The notes beneath the pieces are model-generated. The model was not told where the DNA came from, did not search any database, and was given only the letters and a program-made list of their open reading frames with translations. From IMG/VR virus record IMGVR_UViG_3300042538_000004, positions 1 to 38,324 of that record: a stretch of 38,324 nt of DNA. One strand, 5' to 3'. Both the position numbers and the translations under genes were made by a program. The stretch comes from a virus. Positions 20,585 through 35,450 of this stretch are shown here, one piece after another; within the stretch, counting starts at the first letter, position 1, and the number at the start of each line of letters is the position of its first letter.

Positions 20585-22399
20585 ATGACGGCGCCGCACA
20601 CTCACATGAGCGCGGCCGAACTCGCGTCGCTTCAGCTTCCTGGCCTCCCCTCAACCGAGAGCGGCATCATCCGCCGAGCCAAGGGCGATGGCTGGCCGTT
20701 CGTCGACCGGATCGGCCGAGGCGGCGGCCGGCTATACGCCGTCGCCGACCTGCCGGCCGAGGCGCGCGCCGCCGTTCAAGCGCGCGCCACTGCCCGAGTT
20801 CCCGCTAACCTCCGTCCGGTCGGTCGCCCCAAGGGCAGCGACTATTTCAGCCGCAACATAGAGGTCGCCGATGCGGTCGAGGCAATCCTAGCCGATCGGC
20901 AGCTGTCCGCCGCCCGCATACTTGAGCTGCTGGCTCGGCGCTTCCCGCCGGCAACGCTGCCGCCCCGTCGCACCCTCGCCCGCTTCATCCAGAAGCTCGA
21001 GAGCGACAAGCCGGCCCTGCTCGCCGCCACTCGCAATCCCGATCTCTATAAGGGCCAGTATAAGCTGGCGCTCGGCCGCGCCGACGGCGGCGTCACCCAC
21101 GCCCACCAGGTCTGGGAGATCGACACGACCAAGGCGGACGTCCTCACCAAGGGCGGCCGCAAGATGATCCTCGGGCTGATCGACCGCTGGTCGCGCCGCG
21201 CCCGCTTCATGGTGGCGCCATCAGAAAGCGGCCAGGCCGTTCGCCGCCTGCTGATCGAGGCGATCCGCGAGTGGGGCGTCGTCCCCGAGACGGTGAAGAC
21301 CGACAACGGCTCCGGCTACATCAACGCTTCGATCGTCTCCGCCCTCGATACGCTCGGCATCGTCCACGAGCGCTGCCTTCCCGGCACCCCCGAGGACAAG
21401 CCATATGTCGAGCGGCTGTTTGGCACCTTCACCCGCGAGCGGGCCGAGCTGCTCGGCGGCTATTCCGGCCACAACGTCGCCCAGGCGCAGGCGCTCCGCT
21501 CCAAGGCGAAGAAGGAGACCGGCCGCGCAATCGTGCTGCCCGAAATGGAGCCGGAGGAGCTGCAGGCAGTCCTGAATGCCTGGGTCGACGGCGTCTACCA
21601 TCAGCGCGTCCACAGCGGCATCAACACGACGCCGATGCGGCGGTGGCTCTCGTCGCCGGTCCCGGCCCGCCGAGCACCCAGCGAGGACACGCTCAAGATC
21701 GCGCTCTCCCGCTTCGAGCGTGTCGCCACCGTCGGCAAGCGCGGTGTCGTCTGGAAGGGCGGCCGCTATTGGGCAGCCGCCCTGGTCCCATTCGTCGGCC
21801 GCGCCGTTCAGGTTCGCCGCGACGAAGAGGATCTCGGCGCCCTCTTCATCTTCGACGAAGACGGCCACTTCATCGACACGGCAGTCAATGCGGAGCGCGC
21901 CGGTCTGTCCGAGCAGCAATTCGCCCAAGCAGCCGCCCGCCAGCAGGCCGAGTGGCTGTCCGGCGCGAAGGCCGAGCTCCGCGAGAAGAAGCGCCGCTTC
22001 CGCTTCGAGGAAGCCCGCGACCAGCTGCTCCGCGACGACGCCGAGCGTGCCGGCAAGCTTACCTACTTCCCGACGCCGACGGTCGAGCGGTCGACGCCGC
22101 AGCTCGACAGCATCGCAGTTCGGCCGGAACCTCCGATGCCGAGCCAAGCGCGGATCGAAGAGGCGGTCCGCAAGATGGAGCCGCGCCGGGCGGCGCCGAC
22201 GCTCTCGATCGCCGAGAAGGTCGCCGCTGCGGATCGCATCATCGGCGCTGCGGAGCGCGGCGTCGAGGTCGACCCTGACGAGCTGAAGCGCGCCCGCCTG
22301 TTCGCCACCACGACGGCCTACCGCGCCGAAAAGACGATCATCGCCCACTTCGGTGGCGCTCAGACACCCGCCGCAAACGACAGGAGGCACAGCGCGTGA
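20585..22399 (+). CDS. A: transposase, MuA-like DDE recombinase
   Basis: A 604-aa protein. The N-terminal part (SAAELASLQLPGLPSTESGI and GWPFVDRIGRGGGRLYAVAD) matches the Mu transposase DNA-binding winged helix (PF02316 type). The catalytic core has Asp180 in EIDTTKAD, Asp240 in VKTDNGSGY and Glu276 in PYVERLFGTF, with 35 residues between the second Asp and the Glu, the classic DD35E spacing. A C-terminal helical region (REKKRRFRFEEARDQLLRDD) and a final Ala/Arg-rich tail probably contact the ATPase. It cuts and joins the phage ends for replicative transposition. It is followed by its ATPase partner with a GTGA overlap. Confidence 0.97.
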   Translation: MTAPHTHMSAAELASLQLPGLPSTESGIIRRAKGDGWPFVDRIGRGGGRLYAVADLPAEARAAVQARATARVPANLRPVGRPKGSDYFSRNIEVADAVEAILADRQLSAARILELLARRFPPATLPPRRTLARFIQKLESDKPALLAATRNPDLYKGQYKLALGRADGGVTHAHQVWEIDTTKADVLTKGGRKMILGLIDRWSRRARFMVAPSESGQAVRRLLIEAIREWGVVPETVKTDNGSGYINASIVSALDTLGIVHERCLPGTPEDKPYVERLFGTFTRERAELLGGYSGHNVAQAQALRSKAKKETGRAIVLPEMEPEELQAVLNAWVDGVYHQRVHSGINTTPMRRWLSSPVPARRAPSEDTLKIALSRFERVATVGKRGVVWKGGRYWAAALVPFVGRAVQVRRDEEDLGALFIFDEDGHFIDTAVNAERAGLSEQQFAQAAARQQAEWLSGAKAELREKKRRFRFEEARDQLLRDDAERAGKLTYFPTPTVERSTPQLDSIAVRPEPPMPSQARIEEAVRKMEPRRAAPTLSIAEKVAAADRIIGAAERGVEVDPDELKRARLFATTTAYRAEKTIIAHFGGAQTPAANDRRHSA

Positions 22400-23166
22400 A
22401 CGATCTATCCTTCCAGGCACGCCTGGACTTTGGGGACCATCTGCCTCCGGGGCCGGCCCAGCTCACCAACATGAACTTGGCCCTGCGCACCTATTATGAC
22501 TGCGCCCAAGCGGCGGCCGGTCTACCTCGGATCGGCGTCATGTATGGCCCCTCGGGCTACGGCAAGACGGTGGCGATGGGCTTCACCGCCCAGCGCTCCG
22601 ACGCCGCCTATCTCGAAGCCAAGTCGATCTGGACCCAGCGCTCGCTGCTCGAGGCGATCGCCGAGGAGATCGGCATCCGCTCGCTCGAGCGAAGCGGCCC
22701 GCGGATCCTCGAGCAGATCATCGACCAACTCAACCGCGAGCCCCGCGGGCTTATCATCGATGAGATGGACCACTTGGTCCGCAAGCAGCATGTCGAGATC
22801 ATCCGCGACATCCACGACGCGACCCGGATCCCGATCCTGCTCGTCGGCGAGGAGGCCCTGCCGTCGAAGCTGAAGGCTTGGGAGCGCTTCCACAACCGCA
22901 TCCTGGTCGCCACGGCCGCGCAGCCGGCGACGGATGACGACGCCCGCAAGCTCCGCGATCATTACTGCCCGCGGGTCGCGATGGCGGACGACTTGGTGGA
23001 GCGGATCGTCCGCGCCTGCCGCCATGTCACCCGCCGCATCGTCGTGTGCCTGAAGGAGGCGGAGCGCATCGCGGCCGAGGAGGGCGTGGACTCGATCGAC
23101 CTCGCCTGGTGGGGCACCCGTCCCTTCGCCACTGGCGAGGTTCCGGTCCGGAGGCTCGCCGCCTGA
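22396..23166 (+). CDS. B: transposition target-choice ATPase, MuB-like AAA
   Basis: A 256-aa protein that starts with GTG, eight bases after AGGAGG, overlapping the transposase stop. Walker A is GPSGYGKT (residues 51-58) and Walker B is LIIDEMDHL with Asp122-Glu123. The MuB-type AAA ATPase binds target DNA, brings the transposase to it and protects the phage from self-insertion. The C-terminal end, which in MuB carries an extra domain, is short here (SIDLAWWGTRPFATGEVPVR). A single TGATG overlap joins it to the next gene. Confidence 0.95.
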   Translation: MNDLSFQARLDFGDHLPPGPAQLTNMNLALRTYYDCAQAAAGLPRIGVMYGPSGYGKTVAMGFTAQRSDAAYLEAKSIWTQRSLLEAIAEEIGIRSLERSGPRILEQIIDQLNREPRGLIIDEMDHLVRKQHVEIIRDIHDATRIPILLVGEEALPSKLKAWERFHNRILVATAAQPATDDDARKLRDHYCPRVAMADDLVERIVRACRHVTRRIVVCLKEAERIAAEEGVDSIDLAWWGTRPFATGEVPVRRLAA

Positions 23167-24014
23167 TGGCCGACTACGCCGCCCATAGCGCCACTGGCGA
23201 ATGCAGCGAGCCGCTGTGGGCTGCCCTTAAGGCGGCGGCGGCGCCGGCGTCGATCGACGAGCTGCACGGCGCCAGCCGCGCCCATCCGCAGGCAATTCGC
23301 ACCCGGCTGCGCCGCTGGGCGCAGTGCGGCTTCGTCACCATCGAGGAAGGCCTGCCGCCTCGCTATCAGATCGCCGCTGACGCCGCTCACCTGGTCGAGC
23401 CGCCCTATCCTGGCGAGATCGCCGGCGCCGCCTGGTCCGCGCTCCGCCGGATCGGCCGGCCGGCAACCTTCGACGAGCTGCTCGCCGCCACCGGCGCCGC
23501 CGATCGCGCGCTCTACTGCCGCCTCTGGCGCTGGGCCGAGCAGGGCTTCCTGCGGGTCCTGCCCGCGGAGCCGCGCCGCTTCTCACTCACCCAGTCCGCG
23601 CCCGACGCGCCGGTTCCGCCGAAGGTCAACGATCGCGGCCAGGTCCTGCCGCCGCGCCGCAGCGCCCGCTCCCGGATCTGGAAGGTGATGCGCGTCCTCA
23701 AAACCTTCGACGTCCCGACGCTGATGATAGCGGCCGAGGTCAAGCGCCGCGCCTGCGACGACTTCCTCAACCTGCTCGTCCGAGCCGGTTACGTCCGGAT
23801 GAACGGCTACAACTTCAAGCGTCTCGGCAGCGGTGCCGTCCGCGACTGGTCGACCTACACCCTGCTCCGGAACACCGGACCGCGCCACCCCACCATCAGT
23901 GCCTATCGCGGCAAAGCCGAGCCTCAGCGCCTCACCGATCACAATACCGGCGCCTCAGTCGAGCTCGCCTTCCACGTGCCGCGCCAGCGCCGCGGAGGTA
24001 ACCATGATTGTTAA
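23166..24014 (+). CDS. protein with about three winged-helix segments
   Basis: A 282-aa protein starting at the ATG that overlaps the ATPase stop. I see three winged-helix-like units: residues about 20-75 (AHPQAIRTRLRRWAQCGFVT), 85-140 (TFDELLAATGAADRALYCRL) and 165-215 (VPTLMIAAEVKRRACDDFLN, LLVRAGYVRMNG). Each has the order helix, helix, recognition helix, wing. Such genes follow the transposition genes in several alphaproteobacterial Mu-like phages; the function is not known to me. DNA binding in replication or early regulation is the obvious inference. Confidence 0.65.
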   Translation: MADYAAHSATGECSEPLWAALKAAAAPASIDELHGASRAHPQAIRTRLRRWAQCGFVTIEEGLPPRYQIAADAAHLVEPPYPGEIAGAAWSALRRIGRPATFDELLAATGAADRALYCRLWRWAEQGFLRVLPAEPRRFSLTQSAPDAPVPPKVNDRGQVLPPRRSARSRIWKVMRVLKTFDVPTLMIAAEVKRRACDDFLNLLVRAGYVRMNGYNFKRLGSGAVRDWSTYTLLRNTGPRHPTISAYRGKAEPQRLTDHNTGASVELAFHVPRQRRGGNHDC

Positions 24015-24408
24015 CCACGCCTTCGCATCTGCGGCCACCAACGTCGCCAAGGCCGAGGCCGCCTGGGGCGCCACGATCCCCGGCTGGGTGCGGCTCCTGG
24101 CCAGCGCCAGCGATGCCGGTGGCCAGCGCCGCGTCGCCGAGCGCCTCGGCAAGTCGTCCGCGTATGTCAGCCGGCTGATCAACCGCTCCTACGGCGGCAG
24201 CTACGAGGAGGCGGAGACGCTCGTCCGCGCCGCCTACGGCAATGAGGACGTGGTCTGCCCGATCTGGGGCTCGATCCCGCTCGCCAGCTGCATCCGCAAT
24301 CGCCGCCGAAAGGGGCTGCCCCGCAACCAGGTCCACCACCTGCACGCGCGCCACTGCCCGGCCTGCCCGAACAACACCGACCGTCCGTCAGCGTCAGAGG
24401 AGGAGTGA
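24004..24408 (+). CDS. small DNA-binding protein (HTH-like) of the early operon
   Basis: A 134-aa protein. The ATG at 24004 is preceded by GGAGGT with four bases between, an excellent site, so the longer upstream frame is ignored. The segment ASDAGGQRRVAERLGKSSAY with VSRLINRSYGG looks like a helix-turn-helix. The C-terminal half contains four Cys/His candidates (VCPIWGS, SCIRN, LHARHCPACP), which may form a zinc site. Both units suggest DNA binding. It overlaps the previous gene by 11 bases and is the third in a chain of early genes. Confidence 0.65.
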   Translation: MIVNHAFASAATNVAKAEAAWGATIPGWVRLLASASDAGGQRRVAERLGKSSAYVSRLINRSYGGSYEEAETLVRAAYGNEDVVCPIWGSIPLASCIRNRRRKGLPRNQVHHLHARHCPACPNNTDRPSASEEE

Positions 24409-24669
24409 ATGAGCGTTTCTAGTCGATTGCAGTGCCTGATCAGCCGGATTGCAACCACCGGCGGAATTGACCGCGACGAGCTGCTCGACGAGCTCGCCGG
24501 CATCCGCGACCACGCCACACAGGCGGACCTCCGCGCCACCCGCGACCGCATGTGCTTCGCCGAGCTGATTGACGGGATCGAGAGCAAAGTCCTCGACCAG
24601 CAGGGGTTGGTTGATCGCGCCCGCCGCCGCCACTCCCGCACGGCTTCCAAGCTGCAGGCGGTCGGCTGA
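24409..24669 (+). CDS. small helical early protein
   Basis: An 86-aa all-helical charged protein (ATTGGIDRDELLDELAGIRD, GLVDRARRRHSRTASKL). A GGAGGAG ribosome site precedes the ATG, which lies directly after the previous stop. The family is not recognised. It may act as a small adaptor or anti-host factor of the early region. Confidence 0.6.
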   Translation: MSVSSRLQCLISRIATTGGIDRDELLDELAGIRDHATQADLRATRDRMCFAELIDGIESKVLDQQGLVDRARRRHSRTASKLQAVG

Positions 24670-24983
24670 TGGAACCGGGCACCTATCTTCGCCTCCGGCG
24701 CGAAGCGGCCGGCGTGGCGATCGCAGACGTCGCCGAACTTCAGGAGAGCCTGGAGGACATCGAGACGGGCGGCGCTCCGATCACCGTCCACGATGCCACC
24801 CGGCTGCGCGAGCTGTTCCCGTTCGACCCAGACGTCCTGGCCGCGCTCTGCAGGGGCCAGGAGGAGCCGATCTGCCGGGTCTGTGGCTGCAGCCAATATG
24901 ATCCCTGCGCAGAGGGCCTGACCCACTGTGCCTGGGCTGAGGATGACCTCTGCACCGCCTGCCGCATCCCGGTGCCGGCATGA
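24669..24983 (+). CDS. HTH protein with a Cys-rich zinc tail
   Basis: A 104-aa protein. The first half (EPGTYLRLRREAAGVAIADV and SLEDIETGGAPITVHDATRL) has the style of an XRE helix-turn-helix. The second half has CRVCGCSQYDPC followed by HCAWAEDDLCTAC, at least six Cys and one His, a likely zinc-binding module. This pairing is common in sphingomonad phages. Transcription or replication control is likely; the target is unknown. The start overlaps the previous stop (TGATG). Confidence 0.65.
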   Translation: MEPGTYLRLRREAAGVAIADVAELQESLEDIETGGAPITVHDATRLRELFPFDPDVLAALCRGQEEPICRVCGCSQYDPCAEGLTHCAWAEDDLCTACRIPVPA

Positions 24984-25198
24984 TTGACGGTCCGCCCATC
25001 CACCTCAGCGCCGACGACATGGTCGACGAGCCGCAGCCCCGCGGCCTGGCCGTCCTCTATCGCCGCGACGTCGCGACCTACTGCCCCGGCTGCGGTCGCT
25101 CCAACTGGCTCGTTGGCCGCACCTCGGCCGAGTGCGCCTTCTGCTCCACCGCCATCCCGATCCACCCCGCGGCCGCCCGGCCGCCTGTGAAAGCGTAG
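24980..25198 (+). CDS. small zinc-ribbon protein
   Basis: A 72-aa protein with CPGCG near residue 35 and CAFCS near residue 52, a four-cysteine zinc ribbon. The ATG overlaps the previous stop (ATGA). It sits between another Cys-rich protein and Gam, so it belongs to the early operon. It may bind RNA, DNA or a host protein; no function can be assigned. Confidence 0.6.
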   Translation: MIDGPPIHLSADDMVDEPQPRGLAVLYRRDVATYCPGCGRSNWLVGRTSAECAFCSTAIPIHPAAARPPVKA

Positions 25199-25209
25199 AA
25201 AGGAAGTCC

Positions 25210-25875
25210 ATGGGCGCCACCCGCCGCAAGGCCGTTCGCCAGCAAGCCCCGCAAACCCTCGAGGAGGCGATCGGGGAGCTCGCCGAATATGCCGACATCC
25301 TCACCGGCATCGAGGAGCTCGAGGCCGACGCCGTCGCGTCGATCGCCGCGATCAAGGCCGAGCGCGACCGCATGGTCGCGCCGCTCGAGCAGCGCCTGAA
25401 GGAGATCTTCCTTCGGCTTCGCGCCTGGTGGGCCGTCGCCGGAGCCGAGCTGACTGAGGGCAAGCGCAAGAGCCACGAGCTCGCCGGCTGCGTCCTCGGG
25501 GAGCGCACCACGCCGCCGAGCCTCAAGATGCCGGCCAAGGCAGAAGAGGCGGCACTGCTCCTGGTCAACGTCGGCCTGGCCGAGCTCTGCCGACACAAGG
25601 TCGAGGTCGATAAGCCGGCGGTGCTGAAGACGCTCGCCCGATGGGAAGAGCTCCAGGAGAAGGCCAACCTTGCGAGTGTCAGCGGCCCGGAGGCTTGGCG
25701 CCACCTCATCGATACTGTGGACGATGAGGAGCTGATCGCTCTCGCCAAGCAGATCCTGCCGATCGTGACGCTTAGGGATCTCGGCTTCACCGCCGTCCAG
25801 AAGGAGGAGTTCTTCATCGACCGCGCCGGGGAGAAACCTGCGGCCGTGGAAATCGTCCAAGAGGCGGCGGAATGA
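25210..25875 (+). CDS. gam: host-nuclease inhibitor Gam
   Basis: A 221-aa protein. I choose the ATG at 25210 (MGATRRKAVRQQ) because AAGGAAG precedes it at the right distance; the open frame extends further back into the upstream gene. The region LEEAIGELAEYADILTGIEE through KAERDRMVAPLEQRLKEIFL, a long coiled coil, followed by LRAWWAVAGAELTEGKRKSH, is the Mu Gam family (PF07352). Gam is a Ku-like dimer that binds double-strand DNA ends and blocks exonucleases, which protects the infecting linear phage DNA. Confidence 0.92.
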   Translation: MGATRRKAVRQQAPQTLEEAIGELAEYADILTGIEELEADAVASIAAIKAERDRMVAPLEQRLKEIFLRLRAWWAVAGAELTEGKRKSHELAGCVLGERTTPPSLKMPAKAEEAALLLVNVGLAELCRHKVEVDKPAVLKTLARWEELQEKANLASVSGPEAWRHLIDTVDDEELIALAKQILPIVTLRDLGFTAVQKEEFFIDRAGEKPAAVEIVQEAAE

Positions 25876-26150
25876 GCGGGCAGATCGTCACGGCGATCGC
25901 TGGCCTCACTTGCCTGGTGATCGAGCCGCGCCCGATCGCCGGCGAGGACGACAAGTTCGGCGTCGGCGTCAGCGCCACCGAAGTCGACGGCAAGCCTGTG
26001 GCCACCATCTCCATCCGGCACAAGGACGGCCGGATGCTGCTCGCCGTGCTGCCTCCCGCCCTCCTCGGTCAGTTTGCGGAGATGGTCTCGATGACCTCGA
26101 AGAACATGCCGATGCTTGATGACCGGGCGTCGCCGCCGGAGTTCCAATGA
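25872..26150 (+). CDS. small hypothetical early protein
   Basis: A 92-aa soluble beta/alpha protein (VTAIAGLTCLVIEPRPIAGE, KPVATISIRHKDGRMLLAVL). Family not recognised. The ATG overlaps the Gam stop. The position between Gam and the small basic gene suggests a host-takeover function, not demonstrable here. Confidence 0.6.
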   Translation: MSGQIVTAIAGLTCLVIEPRPIAGEDDKFGVGVSATEVDGKPVATISIRHKDGRMLLAVLPPALLGQFAEMVSMTSKNMPMLDDRASPPEFQ

Positions 26151-26342
26151 GTGCCTCGCTCGCGCGCCCCGATCGCGCTGCGCAGACTTCGCCGGCACCG
26201 GCAGGCGATGGAGCTGGCCATGGCGGAGCAGCTGCCCCTCCAGGAGGCGCGCTGGCGCCTGTTCCACCGCGGCTCCTTCGCCACCTCGCCGGACTCAAGC
26301 GAGCCGGAGCTTCCGCCCGAGCCCTACTGGAAGAGCCTGTGA
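26151..26342 (+). CDS. small basic protein, short frame chosen over a longer one
   Basis: A 63-aa protein with a GTG start directly after the previous stop. The other frame from ATG 26147 would run to 26755 (202 aa), but over 26147-26338 its third codon positions are often A or T, whereas this frame is almost wholly G/C-ending. This frame also reads as a sensible basic helix (RRLRRHRQAMELAMAEQLPL). Its TGA overlaps the GTG of the next gene (GTGA). Function unknown. Confidence 0.6.
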   Translation: MPRSRAPIALRRLRRHRQAMELAMAEQLPLQEARWRLFHRGSFATSPDSSEPELPPEPYWKSL

Positions 26343-26755
26343 CTTGTCCCGGCTGCGCCGCCCTCGAGGCCCGCATCCTCGACATCGAGGCGCGGCTCGC
26401 CGGCCTCACGCCGATCGAGCGCTCCCTTCTCACGAAGCCGACGATCGCGGCGATCGTCGCCGACGCCAGCACGATCCTGGGCTATCCGGCCGCGGACATT
26501 CTCGCTCGCGGACGCGTGAAGGAGCTTGGCGATGCGCGGCGCGCCGTCGCCTGGGCTGCTCGCCACGGCACTCGCTATCCGCTCGCTCGCATCGGCGAGG
26601 CCCTCGGCGATCGCGACCACACCACCATTCGCGCGCTCGTCGCCTGCGCCGATCGCCGCCGCCGCGAGGACGGCCCGTTCAAGCTGCTCAGCGATCTACT
26701 GCTCAACAACGCCCGCGATCGCCGCTCGGCCGAATTAATCGGGATCAGTCGATGA
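26339..26755 (+). CDS. DnaA domain-IV-like protein
   Basis: A 138-aa protein. GGAAG lies five bases before the GTG at 26339, which overlaps the previous stop. After a CPGC start and a coiled segment (ALEARILDIEARLAGLTPIE), residues about 50-115 match the DnaA C-terminal DNA-binding domain: ADILARGRVKELGDARRAVA, then YPLARIGEALGDRDHTTIRA. The GDRDHTT motif is the DnaA signature that reads GGRDHTT in the bacterial protein and contacts DnaA-box DNA. The ATPase domains are absent. It could recruit or block host initiation, or bind boxes in phage DNA. Confidence 0.75.
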   Translation: MTCPGCAALEARILDIEARLAGLTPIERSLLTKPTIAAIVADASTILGYPAADILARGRVKELGDARRAVAWAARHGTRYPLARIGEALGDRDHTTIRALVACADRRRREDGPFKLLSDLLLNNARDRRSAELIGISR

Positions 26756-27024
26756 CGCCGGAGCAGAAGCAGACCTTCGAAGCCGTGAAGGGGTTCATCC
26801 AGGAGCGCGGCTTCTCGCCGAGCTTCACCGAGATTGGCGAGCTGCTGGGCGGGAAGGCTAAGTCCGCCGTGAAGCGACGGGTAGACGGCCTGGTCGCCCT
26901 CGGCCTCATCCGCACCCGTCCCGGCCGCAACCGCTCGATTGAGCTGGTGGAACATGACCTCGCCCGAGTGCCGACATCGGCGCTCTGGGCCGAGCTCGAG
27001 CGCCGCGGAGCTGCCCATGGCTAA
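26752..27024 (+). CDS. LexA-DNA-binding-domain-like protein
   Basis: A 90-aa protein with the layout of a LexA N-terminal winged helix: TPEQKQTFEAVKGFIQERGF, SPSFTEIGELLGGKAKSAVK and RRVDGLVALGLIRTRPGRNR. No peptidase domain follows. The match is to PF01726 by pattern. Such a lone domain could bind SOS boxes and compete with host LexA or regulate phage promoters. The ATG overlaps the previous stop. Confidence 0.7.
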   Translation: MTPEQKQTFEAVKGFIQERGFSPSFTEIGELLGGKAKSAVKRRVDGLVALGLIRTRPGRNRSIELVEHDLARVPTSALWAELERRGAAHG

Positions 27025-27730
27025 GGCCTTCGGCGCCACCGCCGCCCGCGCCATCCGCACTGCCAGCGGCAAGGCCGACAGTCGGTCGAAGATGATCGGC
27101 GCCGTCCGCATGGCCGCGAAGCGCGTCGGCATGAACGACGACGATCGCCGCGCCCTGCAGCAGGAGCTCACTGGCAAGATCTCGCTCGGCGACATGTCGC
27201 TCGCCGAGATCGGCCAAGTGCTCGACCGCCTCAACAAGGACTGGAAAGGGCCGATGGGCCACCGCGCCCACGCCGGCAAGATCCGCGCGCTGTGGTGGAC
27301 CCTCTACTGGCTGGGCGCGATCGAGGATCCCGCCGATCGGCCGCTCGACGCCTTCGTGAAGCGCCAGGCCGGCGTTTCCTCCCTGCGCTTCCTCGACAGC
27401 CGCAAGGCCCACAGCGTCATTGAGGCGCTGAAGGCCTGGGCAGCGCGCGAGGGCGTCTCCTGGCCAGGTCCGGAGCGCTTGGCCGAGGTCACCGTCACTC
27501 AGCCTGGTGTCGATGCCGGGAAGCTCGATCGCCACGCCGTCCTGGCAGCGATCGGCGTGAAGCTGCGCGACGTCGGCGCCCTCAACAGCAGCCACCTCAG
27601 CTACTGCGAGAAGGCCCTCGGCCTCGGCTGCAACCACTGGAGCTGGACGCCGCACGAGCTCGACGCGGCGATCAAGCTTCTCGGCAAGCGGCTTCGTCAC
27701 GTCACCGGTCGGAAGGATGCTGCGCGATGA
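27017..27730 (+). CDS. gemA: GemA/Gp16-like regulatory protein
   Basis: A 237-aa protein starting at the ATG at 27017 (MAKAFGATAARAIR), which overlaps the previous gene by eight bases. The segments MAAKRVGMNDDDRRALQQEL, GDMSLAEIGQVLDRLNKDWK and GKIRALWWTLYWLGAIEDPA match the Mu GemA (Gp16) family (PF06252). In Mu GemA affects host gene expression and DNA topology. The C-terminal quarter (CEKALGLGCNHWSWTPHELD) looks like a helical add-on. Confidence 0.88.
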   Translation: MAKAFGATAARAIRTASGKADSRSKMIGAVRMAAKRVGMNDDDRRALQQELTGKISLGDMSLAEIGQVLDRLNKDWKGPMGHRAHAGKIRALWWTLYWLGAIEDPADRPLDAFVKRQAGVSSLRFLDSRKAHSVIEALKAWAAREGVSWPGPERLAEVTVTQPGVDAGKLDRHAVLAAIGVKLRDVGALNSSHLSYCEKALGLGCNHWSWTPHELDAAIKLLGKRLRHVTGRKDAAR

Positions 27731-28215
27731 GCAGCATCGGGCACAACTTCCCGCCTCCCGATCAGCTGCCGATCCCCCAAGACGTCCGGCCGGACCGATT
27801 CTGGACCGAGCAGATGCTCGAGATGGCCGAGCATATCGGCGCCTATTGCACCCTGCTGATCGTCGACCGTTATGGCGGCGAGCAGCTCTACATCCCGGTC
27901 GACCCATCGAAGAGCAAGCTTAGGGACCTCATCGGCGCCGAAGCGGCCGCTACGATGAGCCACGTCTACGGCCGTGAGGTGCTGCAGATCCCGACGGCCA
28001 AGCATGCGCTCGCCCGAGCCCGCCGGCAGGCCATCATTGCGTCCGTCAAAGCGGGTGATATGAGTGGCGGCGACGCGGCGCGGATCCTCCGCACCTCGCG
28101 CTCCTATCTGGCCTTCCTCGTCAACCAGTCTGACGAGGCCGCCGAGGGCGAGGATCGCCGGCCATCGCGCGGCCACCCTGGCCAGCTCCACCTCTTCGGC
28201 GACGAAGACGGCTGA
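27727..28215 (+). CDS. mor: Mor-like middle/late transcription activator
   Basis: A 162-aa protein. The middle has AEHIGAYCTLLIVDRYGGEQ with LYIPVDPSKSKLRDLIGAEA, the dimerisation part of the Mor/C family (PF08765). It is followed by the helix-turn-helix AGDMSGGDAARILRTSRSYL. The disordered tail holds basic and acidic residues. Mor activates the middle promoter and its relative C the late promoters of Mu; only one such gene is seen here, so it may do both. The gene after it begins past an 81-base gap that probably holds a promoter. Confidence 0.75.
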   Translation: MSSIGHNFPPPDQLPIPQDVRPDRFWTEQMLEMAEHIGAYCTLLIVDRYGGEQLYIPVDPSKSKLRDLIGAEAAATMSHVYGREVLQIPTAKHALARARRQAIIASVKAGDMSGGDAARILRTSRSYLAFLVNQSDEAAEGEDRRPSRGHPGQLHLFGDEDG

Positions 28216-28296
28216 CCTTCCGCCGACGCAAGCACATCGCAGCCGCCCGCAACCGCCATGAAAGCCCTGTTTCCATGAGCTTGAAGGGTGCGTGTC

Positions 28297-28656
28297 GTGA
28301 GCTGGCTTCTAGAGCTGATACGTACCCTCTGGCCCGTTGCCATCGTCGTGATGCCGCTGGTCACCGGCGCCGGCTTCCTCTGGCTCAAGACCCAATTCCC
28401 CTCAAAGACGGACTTCGACACGATCCAGCAGAGGCTGGCCGAGGGATCCCGCAAGCTCTCTGACCTCGATAAGCGCGTCGCCCTGGTCGAGGACGACTGC
28501 GAGAGTTCTCCCTCGAAGCAGGATCTGAGCAACCTCTACGCCGCGCTCGCCGGCCGGACTTCGGGCGTCGAGACGGCGCTGCGCGGCCTCGAGAAGGCGC
28601 TCAACACCCAGAACGACTACGTCCACACCCTCATCGAGAAGGCGATCAAGGGATGA
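28297..28656 (+). CDS. DUF2730-like membrane-anchored protein
   Basis: About 119 aa from the GTG at 28297 (or 122 aa from the GTG at 28288, which has no room for a ribosome site). An N-terminal membrane helix (LLELIRTLWPVAIVVMPLVT) leads to a coiled coil (RKLSDLDKRVALVEDDCESS and LSNLYAALAGRTSGVETALR). This layout matches DUF2730 (PF10805), a small protein found next to the lysis and terminase region of Mu-like phages. It may be a lysis accessory. It starts the later rightward operon. Confidence 0.65.
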   Translation: MSWLLELIRTLWPVAIVVMPLVTGAGFLWLKTQFPSKTDFDTIQQRLAEGSRKLSDLDKRVALVEDDCESSPSKQDLSNLYAALAGRTSGVETALRGLEKALNTQNDYVHTLIEKAIKG

Positions 28657-28946
28657 TCGCCTCAGTCATCCTCCCGGTCGTCCGCCGCGCCATCATCGAC
28701 CTGCTCTTCGACATCGGCGGCGAGCAGAATGACGACGTCCTCACCCAGCTGCTCAACGGGCTCGGCCACCGCGTCGCGCGTCGCGACGTCGCCGAGCAAC
28801 TCGCCTGGCTGGCGAATGAGGCCAAGCTGATCCGGCTTGAGGATCTCGGCCCCTACAAGGTTGCTCGGATCCTCGCCGACGGCCGCGACGTCGCCGAGGG
28901 GCGGCTCCTGGTCGAGGGCATCTACCGCTTCAAGACGGGCGACTGA
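28653..28946 (+). CDS. winged-helix protein of the Mu-like late region
   Basis: A 97-aa protein whose pattern VVRRAIIDLLFDIGGEQNDD, LLNGLGHRVARRDVAEQLAW and RDVAEGRLLVEGIYRF is that of the small winged-helix protein (VpaChn25_0724 family in my memory) next to DUF3486 in Mu-like phages. It starts with ATG overlapping the previous stop. It is probably a DNA-binding partner of the packaging genes. The wing is formed by LIRLEDLGPYKVARILADG. Confidence 0.65.
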   Translation: MIASVILPVVRRAIIDLLFDIGGEQNDDVLTQLLNGLGHRVARRDVAEQLAWLANEAKLIRLEDLGPYKVARILADGRDVAEGRLLVEGIYRFKTGD

Positions 28947-28948
28947 GC

Positions 28949-29512
28949 ATGGCGCAACGCTCGTCCATCGACCGCCTGCCCCCTGAGGTGCGGGAGCGGG
29001 TCGACGCCGCCATCAAGAACGGCGCCACGATCGACGAGATCGTCGGCGTCCTGCTCGACCTGCACGACGCGGGCGAGCTGTCCGAGCCCGTCTCCCGCTC
29101 CGCCGTCGGCCGCTACTCGAAGAACTACCGGCAGCTCGCCGAGCGGCAGCGCGAGCTGCAGTCGGTTGCCAAGGCCTTCGGCCAGGAGTTCGGCCAGGAG
29201 GGGGACAATCAGGGGCGGCTGATGAACCAGCTGCTCACCAGCCTGATCACGCGCGTCACCATGCCGGTGGTCACCGGCGACGACGAGGATCTTCCCGACT
29301 TCAAGGATCTCCATTTCCTCGCCCGCGCGGTGAAGGACGCCGCCTCCGCCGCCAAGACCGACGTCGATCGCGAGGCAAAGGTCCGCGACGAGACCTTCAA
29401 GCGCGCCAAGCAGGCCGCGGCCGAGGCCGCCGCCATCAGCGCCAGGGGCGCCGGCGCCTCCGAGGAAACCATCCGCACTGTCCGTGCTGCAATCCTGGGG
29501 ATCGAGCCATGA
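28949..29512 (+). CDS. DUF3486, probable small terminase subunit (Mu gp27)
   Basis: A 187-aa protein. It begins SSIDRLPPEVRERVDAAIKN, then ATIDEIVGVLLDLHDAGELS with SRSAVGRYSKNYRQLAERQR, matching DUF3486 (Mu gp27). The N-terminus is a helix-turn-helix that binds DNA ends and the rest is helical, ending in an Ala-rich coil. It sits three genes before the large terminase, the expected position for the small subunit, which recognises the packaging site at the phage left end. Confidence 0.8.
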   Translation: MAQRSSIDRLPPEVRERVDAAIKNGATIDEIVGVLLDLHDAGELSEPVSRSAVGRYSKNYRQLAERQRELQSVAKAFGQEFGQEGDNQGRLMNQLLTSLITRVTMPVVTGDDEDLPDFKDLHFLARAVKDAASAAKTDVDREAKVRDETFKRAKQAAAEAAAISARGAGASEETIRTVRAAILGIEP

Positions 29513-30477
29513 ACCAGCTTACCGCTCAGCAGCGGTCGTTTTACGAATGCCTCCTCGCCAACCGTGCCCGCGGCATGGCCATCGCGCGCAGCACGCGCCT
29601 ACCCTCGCAGATGAGCCGGGTGGTCAACAACCTGCGCCGGCTCGGCCTGGTAGAGCCGGAGACCTACCGTCCAATCGCGCTTCCAGCGCCGATCGCCGCC
29701 GTAGAGGCCCGGAAAGCGCCCGTAGAAGGCAAGGCCGCCCAGCCTAAGGGTCTGTGGCCAGCCGACCGCTGCGAGCGCTTCCTGGGCGAGCTGGCGCGGA
29801 CTGGCGAAGTGAATGCAGCCGTGCGGGCGCTCGGCCTCACCGGCAAAGCTGGTCTTTATGGGATGCGGAAGGCCTCGCCGGCCTTCGCCGCCCGCTGGGA
29901 CGCAGCCCTGGCGCGCTTCGCAGCAGGGGAGGTGGCGGACACCGCGAGCCGCCCTTTCGCCTCCAGTGACGGACTGGCGGAAGCACGACGGCCGAGCGAT
30001 GCCGGTTCCGCCGGAAACGATGGTGCGGATCCGCTACCGGAACAGGACCGAGAAGGGGCCGCTGCAGGCGAAGAGCCGGAACTGGCAGTGGTCGAAGCAG
30101 GCGCCGAGCGACTGGGACATCGTGAGCTGGGTGCTGGCGCCGAGCTCGAGCTGAAGCCGGAGACTGTCGCCGACCGCATCCGCCGGCTCGGTAAGGAGAT
30201 GAGCGGCGGCGCGCCTGCCATGCCCGCCAGCGCCCGCCTCAGCCTCGGCATAGCGACACCCACCACCCCGGTGCGGAGGGTCAGCTACATTGAGGGATAT
30301 ATCCAGCGCCTCGAGAAGGCGAAGGCCTACCTCAGGGGCCTCAGCTGCTCCGTCGTTCAAGCCTCGCGCGACGCGGTGATCCCGAGCTGGCATGTCTCCG
30401 GCTACACCGGCGCATTCTCCAACGAGCAGCTGATCCAGCTCGCCATCAGTCGCGGCATGGAACCGCTCGCGGCATGA
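29509..30477 (+). CDS. HTH protein with a suspect middle frame
   Basis: The continuous frame encodes 322 aa. Residues 1-145 have an N-terminal winged helix (MNQLTAQQRSFYECLLANRA) and a second HTH-like unit (RCERFLGELARTGEVNAAVR, GLTGKAGLYGMRKASPAFAA). Residues about 225-322 form another conserved-looking part (VSYIEGYIQRLEKAKAYLRG, PSWHVSGYTGAFSNEQLIQL). Between them (29950-30150) codon third positions lose their G/C bias and the sequence becomes Glu/Ala/Gly-rich, while another frame looks coding. The protein could be one chain with a low-complexity linker, two proteins, or carry a shift. Function unknown. Confidence 0.55.
   Translation: MNQLTAQQRSFYECLLANRARGMAIARSTRLPSQMSRVVNNLRRLGLVEPETYRPIALPAPIAAVEARKAPVEGKAAQPKGLWPADRCERFLGELARTGEVNAAVRALGLTGKAGLYGMRKASPAFAARWDAALARFAAGEVADTASRPFASSDGLAEARRPSDAGSAGNDGADPLPEQDREGAAAGEEPELAVVEAGAERLGHRELGAGAELELKPETVADRIRRLGKEMSGGAPAMPASARLSLGIATPTTPVRRVSYIEGYIQRLEKAKAYLRGLSCSVVQASRDAVIPSWHVSGYTGAFSNEQLIQLAISRGMEPLAA
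29966..30154 (+). CDS. small Trp-rich protein in an overlapping frame
   Basis: A 62-aa frame from the GTG at 29966 (VTDWRKHDGRAMPVPPETMV). It contains three spaced Trp residues in RNWQWSKQAPSDWDIVSWVL and nearly every codon ends in G or C. The style VPPETMVRIRYRN matches small phage proteins I have seen elsewhere. It overlaps the 322-aa frame completely, and no ribosome site was found. It may be a real overlapping gene, or a segment joined to the upstream gene by a frameshift. Its stop TGA touches the start of the third, conserved-looking part of the other frame. Confidence 0.45.
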   Translation: MTDWRKHDGRAMPVPPETMVRIRYRNRTEKGPLQAKSRNWQWSKQAPSDWDIVSWVLAPSSS

Positions 30478-30857
30478 GCCAGGTCTGCACCCGCGTCCTC
30501 GCCGGCTCGGCGGAATTCGCGCCGCCGCCTGGCGCGATCGGCGCCCTCGCCTGGGAGCTCGCCAACCATGCGCGGCGCGTTGGCCTCGCCGTCGTCCGCC
30601 TCCGCTGCAGTCGGATCCGTGGCTCGCACACGAAACACATCATCCTGCGCGACGACCGCAATCGCCACTGGCACATCCGCCTCTCCGATCACCCTCCGCC
30701 GCGCCGCACCGGCCACGAGCGCCCGCACTTCGACTTGGTGAGCCGCGACGGCACCGCCGGCTTCGAACTGGCGATCGGCTTCGTGGGCCGCGTCGGCCGC
30801 GGGGAGGAGGCGTGGGCGCCCGCGGAAATGAGCCCCAAGCGGAAGGGCCAGCGATGA
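30474..30857 (+). CDS. small hypothetical protein before the terminase
   Basis: A 127-aa basic protein with HIRLSDHPPPRRTGHERPHF and DLVSRDGTAGFELAIGFVGR. Family not recognised, though this motif appears in proteins next to the terminase of other phages. The ATG overlaps the previous stop, and its stop overlaps the terminase start. A packaging accessory role is possible. Confidence 0.6.
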   Translation: MSQVCTRVLAGSAEFAPPPGAIGALAWELANHARRVGLAVVRLRCSRIRGSHTKHIILRDDRNRHWHIRLSDHPPPRRTGHERPHFDLVSRDGTAGFELAIGFVGRVGRGEEAWAPAEMSPKRKGQR

Positions 30858-32386
30858 CCGACGTCCCGGCCGTCCTTCTGCCCTACCAGCAGGAGGCGCT
30901 TCAGCTCAGCCACGCTCACGCGCTCTACGTCTGCGAGAAGTCGCGCCGCACCGGCCTCACCTACGGCTTCGCGGCCGACGCCGTCCTCACCGTCGCGCCG
31001 GCGCGCGGCGGCATGGACTTCTTCTACATCGCCTACAATCTCGACATGACCCGCGAGTTCATCGACTATTGCGGGGCGTTCCTGAAGGCGTTCAACGAGG
31101 TCGCCAGCGCGCCCTCCGAGTTCCTGTTCGACGATGGGTCGGAGGCCGGCATCAAGGCCTTCCGCATCGACTTCCCGTCCGGACATTCGATCGTCGCGCT
31201 CTCATCCAAGCCGCGCTCGCTGCGCGGAAAGCAGGGCGTGGTCCTGATCGACGAGGCGGCCTTCCACGACCAGCTGGAGGAACTGCTCAAGGCCGCCCTG
31301 GCGCTGCTTATGTGGGGCGGCCGCGTCGTCGTCATCTCAACCCATGATGGCGCCGACAACCCGTTCAACTCGCTGATCGAGGACATCCGCGCCGGCAAAC
31401 GCAAGGGCGTCGTCCAGCGCATCACCCTCAAGGAGGCGCTCGTTCAGGGCCTCTACAGGCGCATATGCCTCCGAACCGGCAAGACCTGGTCGCCGGAGGC
31501 CGAAGCGGCCTGGGAGGCGGATCTGCGCGCCTTCTACGGCGAAGCCGCCGAGGAGGAGCTGGACGTCATCCCCGCCCGCGGCTCCGGCACCTATCTCGCC
31601 CGCGCCACGATCGAGCGCGCCATGTCGGCCGAGCTGCCGGTCATCTACCTGCGCTGCCCTGACGGCTTCGAGCGCGAGAGCGACCACTATCGCCAAGACT
31701 TCGTCCGCGAATTCCTGGAAGAGGAGGTCGCTCCCTACCTAAAGGACTTCGACCGCACCCGCCGCTCTTTCATGGGCCAGGACTTCGCCCGCACCGGCGA
31801 CGTCTCTCCCGTCGCCGTCGGCCAGCACGACGCCCACATGCGCCTGGTCGCCCGCTTCATCCTCGAGATGCGCAACGTGCCCTTCCGGGAGCAGGAGTTC
31901 GTCCTGAACTGGATCGTCGAGCGGCTGCCGCTCTTCGCCCATGGCAAAATGGACGCTCGCGGCAACGGCTCCGCCCTCGCCGAGGCGATGCAGCAGCGCT
32001 GGGGCTTCGACCGCATCGAGGCCGTGATGGCGTCCGACAAGACCTACCTCGCCTTCATGCCGAAGCTGCGCGCGGGCATCGAGGACGGCACCTTCATCAT
32101 TCCCAAGGACGAGGGCACGCTCGAGGATCTGCGGATGATCAAGCTCGTCCGCGGCGTGCCGAAGATCCCGGACCGCTCCGTCGTCTCGAAGGCGGACGGC
32201 TCCAAGGGCAAGCGCCACGGGGACAATGCCGTCGCCCTGATGCACCTCCGCGCCGCCGCCGACGAGGATCCGGGCGAGTTCTTCTTCGCCTCCACCGGCG
32301 CCCGCAGCTCGGCCGCCGCCGAGACGATCGTCACCACCCGCGGCTTCGGGTCGATCACCCGCCGCGCCTCAGGATTGGACTGGTAA
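30854..32386 (+). CDS. large terminase subunit (Mu gp28 type)
   Basis: A 510-aa protein starting at ATG 30854, which overlaps the previous stop (ATGA). The ATPase has EKSRRTGLT (residues 28-36) as an unusual Walker A, typical of Mu gp28, and VVLIDEAAF with Asp133-Glu134 as Walker B. GQDFARTGDVSP with Asp310 opens the RNase-H-like nuclease that cuts DNA at packaging. The protein pumps DNA into the head and works with the portal encoded next. It matches the Mu terminase in order and size. Confidence 0.92.
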   Translation: MTDVPAVLLPYQQEALQLSHAHALYVCEKSRRTGLTYGFAADAVLTVAPARGGMDFFYIAYNLDMTREFIDYCGAFLKAFNEVASAPSEFLFDDGSEAGIKAFRIDFPSGHSIVALSSKPRSLRGKQGVVLIDEAAFHDQLEELLKAALALLMWGGRVVVISTHDGADNPFNSLIEDIRAGKRKGVVQRITLKEALVQGLYRRICLRTGKTWSPEAEAAWEADLRAFYGEAAEEELDVIPARGSGTYLARATIERAMSAELPVIYLRCPDGFERESDHYRQDFVREFLEEEVAPYLKDFDRTRRSFMGQDFARTGDVSPVAVGQHDAHMRLVARFILEMRNVPFREQEFVLNWIVERLPLFAHGKMDARGNGSALAEAMQQRWGFDRIEAVMASDKTYLAFMPKLRAGIEDGTFIIPKDEGTLEDLRMIKLVRGVPKIPDRSVVSKADGSKGKRHGDNAVALMHLRAAADEDPGEFFFASTGARSSAAAETIVTTRGFGSITRRASGLDW

Positions 32387-32387
32387 C

Positions 32388-33992
32388 ATGGCCCAGCGCC
32401 CCAAGCCCTACAGCTCCGCCGTGCGCCGCAGCCCCGGCCGCACCTCGATGCCGGCCGAGCTCAACCAGGTCATCGCGACGACGCACGACGGCCGCGACAT
32501 CACCAAGCCCTATGTCGGCGAGCTCCACGAGTTCAACGATCGCCGGCTCCTCGGCGCCGTCGACTGGGGCGAATATGACCGCATCCTGCTCGACGACCAG
32601 GTGAAGTCCTGCCTCACCCAGCGCATCGGCGCCGTCGTCAGCCGCGAATGGGACGTGCTGCCCGGCGATGCGGAGGATCCGCGTTCGGTTGCTGCCGGCG
32701 ACGCTCTCAAGGCGAACCTCGAGGATATCGGGTGGGACCGCGTCACCGAGAAGATGCTCTACACGCCCTTCTATGGGTTCGGCGTCGCCGAGCTGATGTG
32801 GGGCCTGCGTCCCGACGGCCTCATCGGCTTCGTGCCGGCCGGGCGGACGCGGGCGATCCACGTCCGGCACGCTCGGCGCTTTCGCCAGGACAAGGACGGA
32901 CGGCTGCGGCTGATCACCACCACGAACATGACCGGCGAGATCTTGCCCGAGCGCAAGTTCTGGGAGGTGACGGTCGGCGCCACCGACGACGACCAGCCCT
33001 ACGGCCGCGGCCTGGCCGAGTGGCTCTACTGGCCGTGCCTGTTCAAGCGCAACGGCATCCGCTTCTGGAACACGTTCCTGGACAAGTTCAGCGTGCCGAC
33101 CGCCAAGGGCACCTATCGGCCTGGCACGCCCGAGCAGGACATCCAGCGCCTCCTTTCGGCGCTCTCCTCGATCGCCAACGACACCGGCTTCGTCATCCCA
33201 GAAGGTATGGCCGTGGAGCTGCTCCACGTCGCCACGACCGGCATCGACTTCGAGAAGCTCCCCGCCTTCATGGACGCGGCGATCGCCAAGATCATCCTCG
33301 GCCAGACCATGACCAACACCGCCGGCCCGACCGGCCTCGGCTCCGGCCTCGCCGACGTCCAGGCCGGCGTGAAGCTCGAGGTCATCACCTCCGACGCGGA
33401 CCTCCTCACTGACAGCTTCAGCTCCGGCCCGGCGCGCTGGTGGACCGACCTCAACTTCGGCGCCGACGTCGCCGCGCCGCGAGTCGTCCGCCTGGTCGAG
33501 GAGGAAGAGGACACCAAGACGATCGCCGAGGCCGACAAGGCGATCATGAGCCTCGGCTACGTCCGCACCGACGAGAGCTTCCGCGACACCTATGGCGACG
33601 GGTTCGAGCGCAAGCCGGTGGAAAAAGCGCCCTCCTCCGGCAGTGCCGACGAGGAGGGCGATGCGGCCGGAGAGGTGCGCCGCCAAAACGAGGGTAACAT
33701 CATCCCGCTTCGGCGCGAAGCTAGCTTCGCGGAGGCGCCGATCGGCGGCGACATCGTCGACGAGGCGGTCGCTCAGATCATGGCCGACGAAGGCTGGCGC
33801 ACCGGCGTTTTGGAGCCCTTCGCCGGGTCGCTGCTTGCCGAGCTCGCGCGCGCCGGCAGCGAGGAAGAGGTCCAGGCGATCCTCGCCCGCGCCGCCGAGC
33901 TGGATGACGAAGGCACGCTCGTCACCAGCCTCGAGCGCGCCGGCTTCGCCGTGCGCTTGGCCGCCACCGCCGGGCAGGATGGCGCCGAATGA
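32388..33992 (+). CDS. portal protein, DUF935 (Mu gp29)
   Basis: A 534-aa protein one base after the terminase stop. VKSCLTQRIGAVVSREWDVL, FYGFGVAELMWGLRPDGLIG and VPTAKGTYRPGTPEQDIQRL match the DUF935 portal family (PF06074). The C-terminal 110 residues are acidic and helical (EEVQAILARAAELDDEGTLV). The dodecameric ring is the DNA gate of the head and the starting point of assembly. Its stop overlaps the methyltransferase start. Confidence 0.92.
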   Translation: MAQRPKPYSSAVRRSPGRTSMPAELNQVIATTHDGRDITKPYVGELHEFNDRRLLGAVDWGEYDRILLDDQVKSCLTQRIGAVVSREWDVLPGDAEDPRSVAAGDALKANLEDIGWDRVTEKMLYTPFYGFGVAELMWGLRPDGLIGFVPAGRTRAIHVRHARRFRQDKDGRLRLITTTNMTGEILPERKFWEVTVGATDDDQPYGRGLAEWLYWPCLFKRNGIRFWNTFLDKFSVPTAKGTYRPGTPEQDIQRLLSALSSIANDTGFVIPEGMAVELLHVATTGIDFEKLPAFMDAAIAKIILGQTMTNTAGPTGLGSGLADVQAGVKLEVITSDADLLTDSFSSGPARWWTDLNFGADVAAPRVVRLVEEEEDTKTIAEADKAIMSLGYVRTDESFRDTYGDGFERKPVEKAPSSGSADEEGDAAGEVRRQNEGNIIPLRREASFAEAPIGGDIVDEAVAQIMADEGWRTGVLEPFAGSLLAELARAGSEEEVQAILARAAELDDEGTLVTSLERAGFAVRLAATAGQDGAE

Positions 33993-34558
33993 CCTGGCCG
34001 TTCGGTCACCTGATTCCGCTCCGCTACGGGGCGATCATCGCGGATCCGCCGTGGCGCTTCGAGAACTACTCGGCGGCGGGCGAGGCTAAGAACCCGGTCG
34101 CCCACTATTCCTGCATGAGGACGGCCGACATCGCGGCTCTGCCGGTGAGCCAGCTCGCCGCACCCGATTGCGCCCTGTTCATGTGGGCGACGGCGCCGAT
34201 GCTGCCGGACGCGATCGAGCTGATGTGCCGCTGGGGCTTCACCTTCAAGAGCGCCGGTGCCTGGGCGAAGCAGTCTTCGACCGGAGAGAAGTGGGCATTC
34301 GGCACCGGCTACTGCTTCCGCTCGGCAGCCGAATTCTACCTGCTCGGCACGATCGGCAAGCCGCAGGTCCGATCACATTCGGTTCGCAACCTGATCGCCG
34401 CCCCAGTCCGTGAGCACAGCCGCAAGCCTGACGATCTGCATCGCGACGTCGAGGCGCTCTACGCCGGTCCCTATTGCGAGCTATTCGGCCGCGAGAGCCG
34501 GCCTGGCTGGGAAGTCTGGGGCAACGACGTGACTCGCTTTGACCAGGTGGCAGCATGA
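33989..34558 (+). CDS. MT-A70-type DNA N6-adenine methyltransferase
   Basis: A 189-aa protein with DPPW at residues 19-22 (ADPPWRFENY), the catalytic motif of MT-A70 enzymes. It also has CALFMWATAPMLPDAIELMC and the ending HRDVEALYAGPYCELFGRES. It should add a methyl group to adenine in DNA using S-adenosylmethionine. It is inserted between the portal and MuF genes, which are adjacent in Mu (gp29/gp30). A protective role against host restriction is likely, comparable in purpose to Mu Mom. Confidence 0.85.
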   Translation: MTWPFGHLIPLRYGAIIADPPWRFENYSAAGEAKNPVAHYSCMRTADIAALPVSQLAAPDCALFMWATAPMLPDAIELMCRWGFTFKSAGAWAKQSSTGEKWAFGTGYCFRSAAEFYLLGTIGKPQVRSHSVRNLIAAPVREHSRKPDDLHRDVEALYAGPYCELFGRESRPGWEVWGNDVTRFDQVAA

Positions 34559-34803
34559 TCGTCGTTCCGATCCTCCTCTATGCCGCCGTTCAGGGCGGCG
34601 TTCACAACCTGGGCACGCTCGTGATCGACAACATCGGCGGCACCCGGACCCGCGGCGACTATCGGGTCCGCGTCTACGCCAAGGGCGCCGATTTCGCGAC
34701 CGCCAAGCCCATTCGGGAGGGCCGGGTCCTCGCCCATCGCCGGCTCGCTGAGCCAGTCGGCAATCTCATCGCAAAGGCACTGAAGGAGACAGGATATGGA
34801 TGA
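34555..34803 (+). CDS. small hypothetical protein
   Basis: An 82-aa protein with strands at VVPILLYAAVQGGVHNLGTL and TRGDYRVRVYAKGADFATAK. It starts in ATGA overlap with the methyltransferase stop and itself overlaps the next gene by eight bases. Function unknown; it seems to travel with sphingomonad Mu-like late genes. Confidence 0.6.
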   Translation: MIVVPILLYAAVQGGVHNLGTLVIDNIGGTRTRGDYRVRVYAKGADFATAKPIREGRVLAHRRLAEPVGNLIAKALKETGYG

Positions 34804-35155: not shown

Positions 35156-35162
35156 GGATCGC

Positions 35163-35450
35163 ATGGCTAACATGATCGGCAGTCCCCGCGGCGTGCGGCG
35201 AGCCTGGAAACGCTTTGCTCTGGACCTTTCCAAAGCCGGCGCGATTCTCCGCGACGCGGGTTTCGTCGCTTGTGACGAAGATCCGGCGGAAGCGGCCGCC
35301 TGGCTCGAGGCGGGGCAGGTCCGACGCATCGAAGCCACCTTTTCGGGTGGGTGGAGTGCCAGCCTGAGGGTGGATCGCCGCGGTGCTGGCGTGCTCGTCC
35401 AATGCTTCAGCTCTAGTTTCAGGCTTCAGAAGAGTGCTGCCAGTGGCTGA
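35163..35450 (+). CDS. small hypothetical protein
   Basis: A 95-aa protein. The ATG at 35163 follows GAGG at the right distance; the longer open frame begins inside the previous gene. The basic start (GVRRAWKRFALDLSKAGAIL) and the mixed end (ATFSGGWSASLRVDRRGAGV) give no family. It lies directly before MuF, which starts within its last codons. Confidence 0.55.
   Translation: MANMIGSPRGVRRAWKRFALDLSKAGAILRDAGFVACDEDPAEAAAWLEAGQVRRIEATFSGGWSASLRVDRRGAGVLVQCFSSSFRLQKSAASG

Follow-up and report, generated by a model that had tools for sequence, protein, structure and literature searches.

The window, i.e., the whole stretch of viral DNA that was analyzed, is 38,324 nucleotides long and spans IMG/VR virus record IMGVR_UViG_3300042538_000004 from position 1 onward. 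It contains an early operon with the order transposase, MuB, two small regulator-like genes, Gam, two small frames, DnaA domain, LexA-type helix-turn-helix (HTH) protein, GemA, and Mor-like protein (Table 1). The Mu-like order of transposase, MuB, Gam, GemA, and Mor is thus present, with Mor assigned by phrog_836. The sequence-only reading had placed the DnaA domain beside Gam and a LexA-type domain in the early operon. The operon and the overlapping LexA-type gene downstream were found as described, but Gam is separated from the domain by two small frames of 92 and 63 aa. The GemA and Mor-like genes, which that reading had not mentioned, follow closely downstream. The GTG at 26339 is the likeliest start, because it overlaps the stop of the 63-aa frame and because several relatives have a start codon immediately before the equivalent of the N-terminal helix, and the gene boundaries proposed earlier could therefore be retained. 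Judged from the sequence, an alternative ATG at 26147 is less likely; it would lead to a 202-aa form that overlaps the 63-aa frame. A search for sigma-70-like promoters between 24900 and 28400 yielded none versus 0.1 expected, which says little at a G+C content of 67%. According to a 2025 preprint (PMC12407980), the Mu gem operon is molecularly uncharacterized.

Several further features of the window were noticed. The MuB-like protein covers only positions 311-529 of the 626-long phrog_296, and a separate HTH gene (24004-24408) weakly matches positions 242-280 of the same family (E 0.01). Positions 1-17078 contain large minus-strand frames that appear capsid/tail-like by eye, and positions 20585-36657 contain early and terminase/portal-like frames on the plus strand; a minus-strand left arm together with a plus-strand right arm is unusual for a Mu-like phage. 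Also by eye, an MT-A70-like adenine methyltransferase is encoded at 33989-34558 and a cytosine-5 DNA methyltransferase at 37382-38314.

Table 1. Features of the early operon and of the DnaA domain IV protein (positions in the window).
Feature	Position	Strand	Evidence
MuA-like transposase	20585..22399	+	PF00665, PF09299, PF02316, phrog_310
MuB-like ATPase, bait for relatives	22396..23166	+	phrog_296, 188 bits
Mu Gam-like end-protection protein	25132..25875	+	PF07352, 54 bits; phrog_491, 74 bits
92-aa frame	25872..26150	+	neither Pfam nor PHROG matched at E 0.1
63-aa frame, stop overlapping the GTG start of the domain IV gene as GTGA	26151..26342	+	open frame
138-aa stand-alone DnaA domain IV protein starting with GTG	26339..26755	+	open frame, Pfam/NCBIfam profiles, AlphaFold model
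N-terminal helix, residues 4-21; heptad pattern LEARILDIEARLAGL (residues 9-23)	26348..26401	+	AlphaFold, heptad search
DnaA domain IV fold, residues 34-127	26438..26719	+	VIA-align of the predicted model to 1j1v
Arg59, corresponding to the contact residue R399 of E. coli DnaA	26513..26515	+	alignment; contact reported in PMC5043019
GDRDHTT recognition motif, residues 90-96, with R432, D433, H434, T435, T436 equivalents	26606..26626	+	alignment
LexA-type DNA-binding protein, 90 aa, overlapping the stop of the domain IV gene as ATGA	26752..27024	+	PF01726, 38.8 bits; TIGR00498 partial, below cut-off
GemA-like protein	27017..27730	+	PF06252, 84 bits
Mor-like activator	27727..28215	+	phrog_836 (late transcriptional activator), 71 bits; Pfam Mor, 21.7 bits, below cut-off

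A DnaA domain IV without the ATPase

The profile Bac_DnaA_C (PF08299, cut-off 31.5 bits) matched the 138-aa form with 37.5 bits, the 202-aa frame with 36.3 bits, and the DNA itself with 38.5 bits. By these profile scores, the assignment of the 138-aa protein is far above chance. The NCBIfam DnaA profile was aligned through its C-terminal part alone (positions 344-427 of 437). A phmmer search of PDB sequences retrieved 1j1v, the domain IV of E. coli DnaA, with an E value of 5.2e-5, a profile of 26 relatives recovered the E. coli domain with an E value of 5.3e-30, and Bac_DnaA_C was found in all 26 members of the alignment at E 0.01. No match to the AAA+ ATPase was obtained with Pfam or NCBIfam, and the frame is also too short for it. 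The 202-aa frame had no Pfam match besides Bac_DnaA_C at E 0.1.

The structural model was in line with the profiles. AlphaFold2, based on the 26-sequence alignment, predicted a helix of residues 4-21 followed by a DnaA-like bundle, with a mean pLDDT of 94 and a pTM of 0.81. VIA-align superimposed the model on all 94 residues of 1j1v (Z 15.7, rmsd 1.4 Å), and the first row that was not a DnaA reached a Z of 5.5 only. The top Foldseek matches were the DNA-bound DnaA domains 3pvp and 1j1v. The protein thus shares with DnaA domain IV the fold, the recognition motif, and the equivalents of R399 and R432-T436, but it differs from the full initiator in that it has no AAA+ ATPase domain and, instead of domains I-III, carries a short helix. 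As the sequence-only reading had proposed from the motif and the flanking helices, it is a genuine DnaA domain IV that lacks the ATPase. It belongs to a family that recurs in phages, and its likeliest role is that of a DNA-binding regulator (see below).

The base contacts of E. coli DnaA are reported to be made by residues 399, 423, 432-435, and 438-439 (PMC5043019). According to the alignment, the protein has equivalents of R399, R407, R432, D433, H434, T435, and T436. Five of the eight base-contact positions are kept (R399 and R432-T435); of the other three, 423 is occupied by Ala and 438-439 by Arg-Ala. A recognition helix devoid of the DNA contacts, which had been named beforehand as a finding that would speak against the sequence-only reading, was therefore not observed, and the contacts are largely present. 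The comparison was extended to 25 stand-alone (orphan) domains of Mu-like and other loci; this set includes L131 and leaves out the duplicates L001, L002, L051, and L130 as well as both pieces of the broken L155. R432 was kept in 100% of them, H434 in 92%, R399 and D433 in 84% each, T435 in 64%, and P423 and H439 in 40% each, with the placement of residue 399 being uncertain in L159, L162, and L163. Among the positions that are invariant in DnaA (at least 90% in 26 DnaA rows), the seven base-contacting ones had a mean retention of 0.72 in the orphans versus 0.41 for the 25 others (permutation p 0.017). A narrower set, R399 and R432-T435, had a mean of 0.85 (p 0.003), but it was picked after its conservation had been noticed. 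The DnaA-invariant residues P406, Q408, and F429 were retained in merely 4-8% of the 25 orphans. Some relatives have an altered motif, i.e., GRHHTS in L045, GGRNHAT in L055, and GNRNHAT in L161. The conserved reading head of the protein suggests that it should bind a specific DNA site.

The N-terminal helix of the window protein is hydrophobic at all five heptad a/d positions. Five of five hydrophobic a/d positions were seen in seven of the 21 proteins tested (window, L007, L049, L050, L052, L163, L194), four in another five (L045, L053, L152, L153, L198), and fewer than four in the remaining nine; in L045 and L198 the best heptad stretch differs from the helix that aligns with that of the window. 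In several relatives among the 21, e.g., L003, L054, L055, L195, and L161, the heptad helix was not seen. The helix may form a coiled coil and serve as a dimer helix, but the heptad score of the window, taken alone, was equalled by 37 of 1000 shuffles, and therefore the dimer is something that we infer from model and sequence.

Occurrence in other phages

A search with the MuB-like protein yielded the relatives, from which 38 bacterial loci and, of 117 viral ones, the best 80 were taken for analysis. Within the fetched stretches, the domain IV gene was present in one of the 38 bacterial loci (L007). It was also present in eight of the best 80 of 117 viral relatives, and all eight belong to the 12 closest ones (L045-L056). 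In all eight the domain is encoded on the same strand, between a phrog_2119-like gene and GemA, and in L049, L050, L051, L052, and L055 a Gam match lies just upstream. The domain is absent in the other four of the 12 closest viral loci (L046, L047, L048, L056; best 80 of 117), which still have GemA and Mor, and therefore the domain IV gene is an accessory gene.

Of 119 genomes in the family to which the L007-bearing Sphingomonas genome belongs, 13 had an additional Bac_DnaA_C frame (153-399 aa), either besides DnaA or without a DnaA match (G001); G013, the sole match of which is split in two, was excluded. Six of these 13 frames are accompanied by GemA or other Mu-like genes (L130, L152, L153, L159, L161, L163). 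Ten more stretches were fetched from among the matches listed in a search of 397 genomes. With the window's own probes, L194, L195, and L198-L202 were Mu-like, and no Mu gene was matched in L196 or L197; L203 overlaps L152. The L049 protein as query retrieved 26 viral loci including its own contig, some of them Mu-like with GemA and others not, and the L007 and L052 proteins retrieved one locus each, in the latter case its own contig. The orphan genes of L007 and L194 have a dN/dS of about 0.16 over 133 codons (dS 1.2), and purifying selection thus acts on the domain IV gene in this one pair of relatives.

Small proteins with a domain IV match that are annotated as DnaA-like are also encoded in other phages, with different neighbours. 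Microcystis phage Mae-JY35 XAI96573.1 aligns with 57% of the window protein at 38% identity, and Rhizobium phage RHph_TM3_3_3 QIG67322.1 and Myoviridae sp. ctOK67 UOF79249.1 have 41% and 38% identity, respectively, over 49% of the L007 protein. The stand-alone DnaA domain IV is therefore a real and recurrent phage gene, it occurs also in other kinds of phages, and its kind is not new. Among the open-literature matches listed, judged by title and the start of the abstract, no paper had as its subject a Mu-like phage that encodes DnaA domain IV on its own.

A tree of the domain (80 rows, 84 columns) was poorly resolved. The window fell outside the cluster of host DnaA rows and was paired with L163 (86/89, not starred); in the tree labels L003 was counted as DnaA and the E. 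coli row as "other", so that the group counts are slightly off. A descent from the host dnaA gene was set aside on the basis of this weakly resolved placement.

Some additional observations were made on the relatives. In genomes of the same family, L154, L156, L157, L196, and L197 carry stand-alone domain IV genes near other phage-like genes and had no Mu gene match; their neighbours include Dam-like and DUF1064-like genes by eye, HTH_36 and DUF6551 by Pfam, and VRR_NUC slightly below the cut-off. In L155 (G092) the relative is split by an in-frame stop. Genome G168 carries three Mu-like early regions with the domain (L198, L199, L200), and two of the domain proteins are nearly identical.

DnaA boxes and candidate target sites

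Sites with at most one mismatch to the DnaA box TTATCCACA were absent from the 38,324 bases of the window versus 1.28 expected, a depletion that is not significant. With TTWTNCACA and one mismatch, three sites were found versus 7.3 expected. The longest words shared by the first and last 600 bases were nine bases (inverted) and 10 bases (direct), which does not identify the window ends as phage ends. The earlier suggestion of boxes near the phage ends thus found no counterpart in the window; by sequence, the result argues against such boxes and leaves host sites or a diverged site.

In five related carriers, box-like sites were found shortly before the transposase gene. L007 and L194 have an exact TTATCCACA, and L052, L049, and L050 have sites with one or two mismatches; depending on the placement of the gene start, the distance to the transposase is 68-74 bases (L007, L052, L049, L050) or 91-97 bases (all five). 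The core TCCACA/TGTGGA was present upstream of the transposase in 5 of 23 carriers versus 1 of 65 loci without the domain. Box sites with at most one mismatch were present in 4 of 23 versus 2 of 65, and with at most two mismatches in 7 of 23 versus 10 of 65. Excluded from this comparison were 22 loci in which the transposase start could not be placed, including the carriers L152, L203, L003, and L207, identical regions, and regions shorter than 150 bases. A short open reading frame is located between a ner-like gene and the transposase, and all five sites (L007:7092, L194, L052:7101, L049, L050) overlap its Ile-His or Phe-His codons in frame. An operator before the transposase was therefore set aside, because the sites coincide with codons, because two of the five loci (L007 and L194) are almost identical, and because the window has no such site. 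In L054, by our own reading, a box match sits in the ner-like coding frame.

Pooled counts of TTATCCACA with one mismatch were 6 versus 9.1 expected in 15 hand-picked carriers and 20 versus 13.5 in 12 non-carriers, likewise hand-picked. For TGATCCACA with one mismatch the trend was opposite (44 versus 33.1 in carriers, 30 versus 32.5 in non-carriers). A box depletion in carriers is suggestive at most, because the non-carrier set contains several loci of lower G+C content and other host groups.

Possible functions of the protein

GafY and GafA, the characterized stand-alone domain IV proteins from prophage-like elements of alphaproteobacteria, are reported to be transcription activators (PMC9632790, PMC11150451, PMC6363796, PMC9638019). 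GafY (Caulobacter CCNA_01111, formerly HdaB), a DnaA domain IV homologue, is reported to bind GTA promoters, to contact RpoD, and to require IHF, and it is held not to control oriC via DnaA (PMC9632790, PMC11150451). The N-terminus of GafA from Rhodobacter is reported to resemble DnaA domain IV (PMC6363796, PMC9638019). In these cases a stand-alone or fused domain IV-like module is used by a prophage-like element, and the window protein is a stand-alone module of a phage. The precedents argue for transcription rather than origin control, and a GafY-like transcription regulator, possibly dimeric, is tentatively favoured over a competitor at the host origin, with a probability of roughly 0.48. 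The fold, the retained base-contact residues, the heptad helix, the constraint in the L007/L194 pair, and the shared gene position in the eight viral carriers are in accord with such a regulator. The protein would then be an ATP-independent, sequence-specific DNA binder of the early operon, in which domain IV follows a short helix; this helix may bring two copies together. Its targets would be DnaA-box-like sites, or sites derived from them, in phage or host promoters, bound early in lytic growth, and there it would recruit or block RNA polymerase.

Some observations do not fit easily. GafY works with GafZ (DUF6456), but no match to DUF6456 (PF20057) was found in the 38,324-base window at E 1, with a positive Caulobacter control, and by sequence this speaks against a strict GafY system. 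A GafY-like domain IV next to a DUF6456 (GafZ-like) protein was found at L131:1312-2237, in the Aureimonas genome of L044, and counts in favour of the regulator, but its motif is RDRTT versus RDHTT in the window protein, and therefore the two need not share a target site; in the domain tree, which is weak and has long branches, they were not grouped. In addition, no operator was found for a regulator, and the phage already encodes other regulators (a repressor-like frame, the Mor-like protein, the LexA-type HTH protein, and phrog_2030). Domain IV has likewise been reused in REP-associated transposases of subclass 2.1, which are reported to have a C-terminal Bac_DnaA_C-like domain; there, it is fused to an HuH transposase, and the flanking repeats are described as unlike DnaA boxes (PMC6006769).

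Alternatively, the protein could occupy DnaA boxes at oriC and at DnaA-regulated promoters without supplying the origin-opening ATPase, so that host initiation would be stopped or delayed and the replisome freed for phage transposition. The retained base-contact residues are in accord with this, as is the location of the gene between Gam and GemA, with relatives near GemA in many Mu-like loci. The RDHTT head, as opposed to RDRTT in L131, and the lack of boxes with up to one mismatch point in the same direction without being decisive; since the window has no box, canonical targets would be in the host. A precedent for prophage control of initiation is YfdR, a cryptic prophage protein that is reported to act through DnaA itself: it is a DnaA-binding protein, and initiation is inhibited when its gene cluster is overexpressed (PMC4776307). 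However, GafY/HdaB was once read likewise as a replication regulator and later reassigned to control of GTA transcription (PMC9632790), the scarcity of boxes is not significant, and key residues are changed in L045, L055, and L161, so that occupation of the host origin appears unlikely. Still less likely is its wider form, in which transposable phages would have a DnaA-box-binding protein of their own, a stripped-down and perhaps dimeric DnaA, for competition with host DnaA at oriC and at promoters under DnaA control; the phage DNA itself would be free of boxes, and the protein, together with Gam and GemA, would hand the replisome to the phage.

It is improbable that the protein marks phage DNA, at the ends or at an internal site, for replication proteins. 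The window has no box, and the box-like sites before the transposase gene of the five carriers, which would otherwise suit such a role, may be coding. In addition, DnaA needs its domains I-III for helicase recruitment, and these are absent here; moreover, Mu replication is not known to depend on DnaA. In other kinds of phages, orphans can lie near replication-type genes, e.g., beside a "putative replisome organizer" (MW202613) and a DUF1376 gene (RHph_TM3_3_3). Least probable of all is a drifting or redundant gene, i.e., an old domain IV fragment without a strong role that hitch-hikes in a dense operon. Its absence from four of the 12 closest viral loci, the very divergent sequences, and the in-frame stop in the G092 relative would be compatible with drift, but the constraint in the L007/L194 pair, the conservation of contact residues among divergent copies, and the recurrence in many phages are against it.

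Among the stand-alone domain IV phage proteins found in the open literature, a tested role exists for the GTA versions only. The Mu-like protein retains the full R-D-H-T-T reading head, which may have been reused at promoters, as in the favoured regulator, or may be aimed at the host origin. In the latter case, the protein would be a phage anti-initiator that acts by occupying sites and not by binding DnaA.
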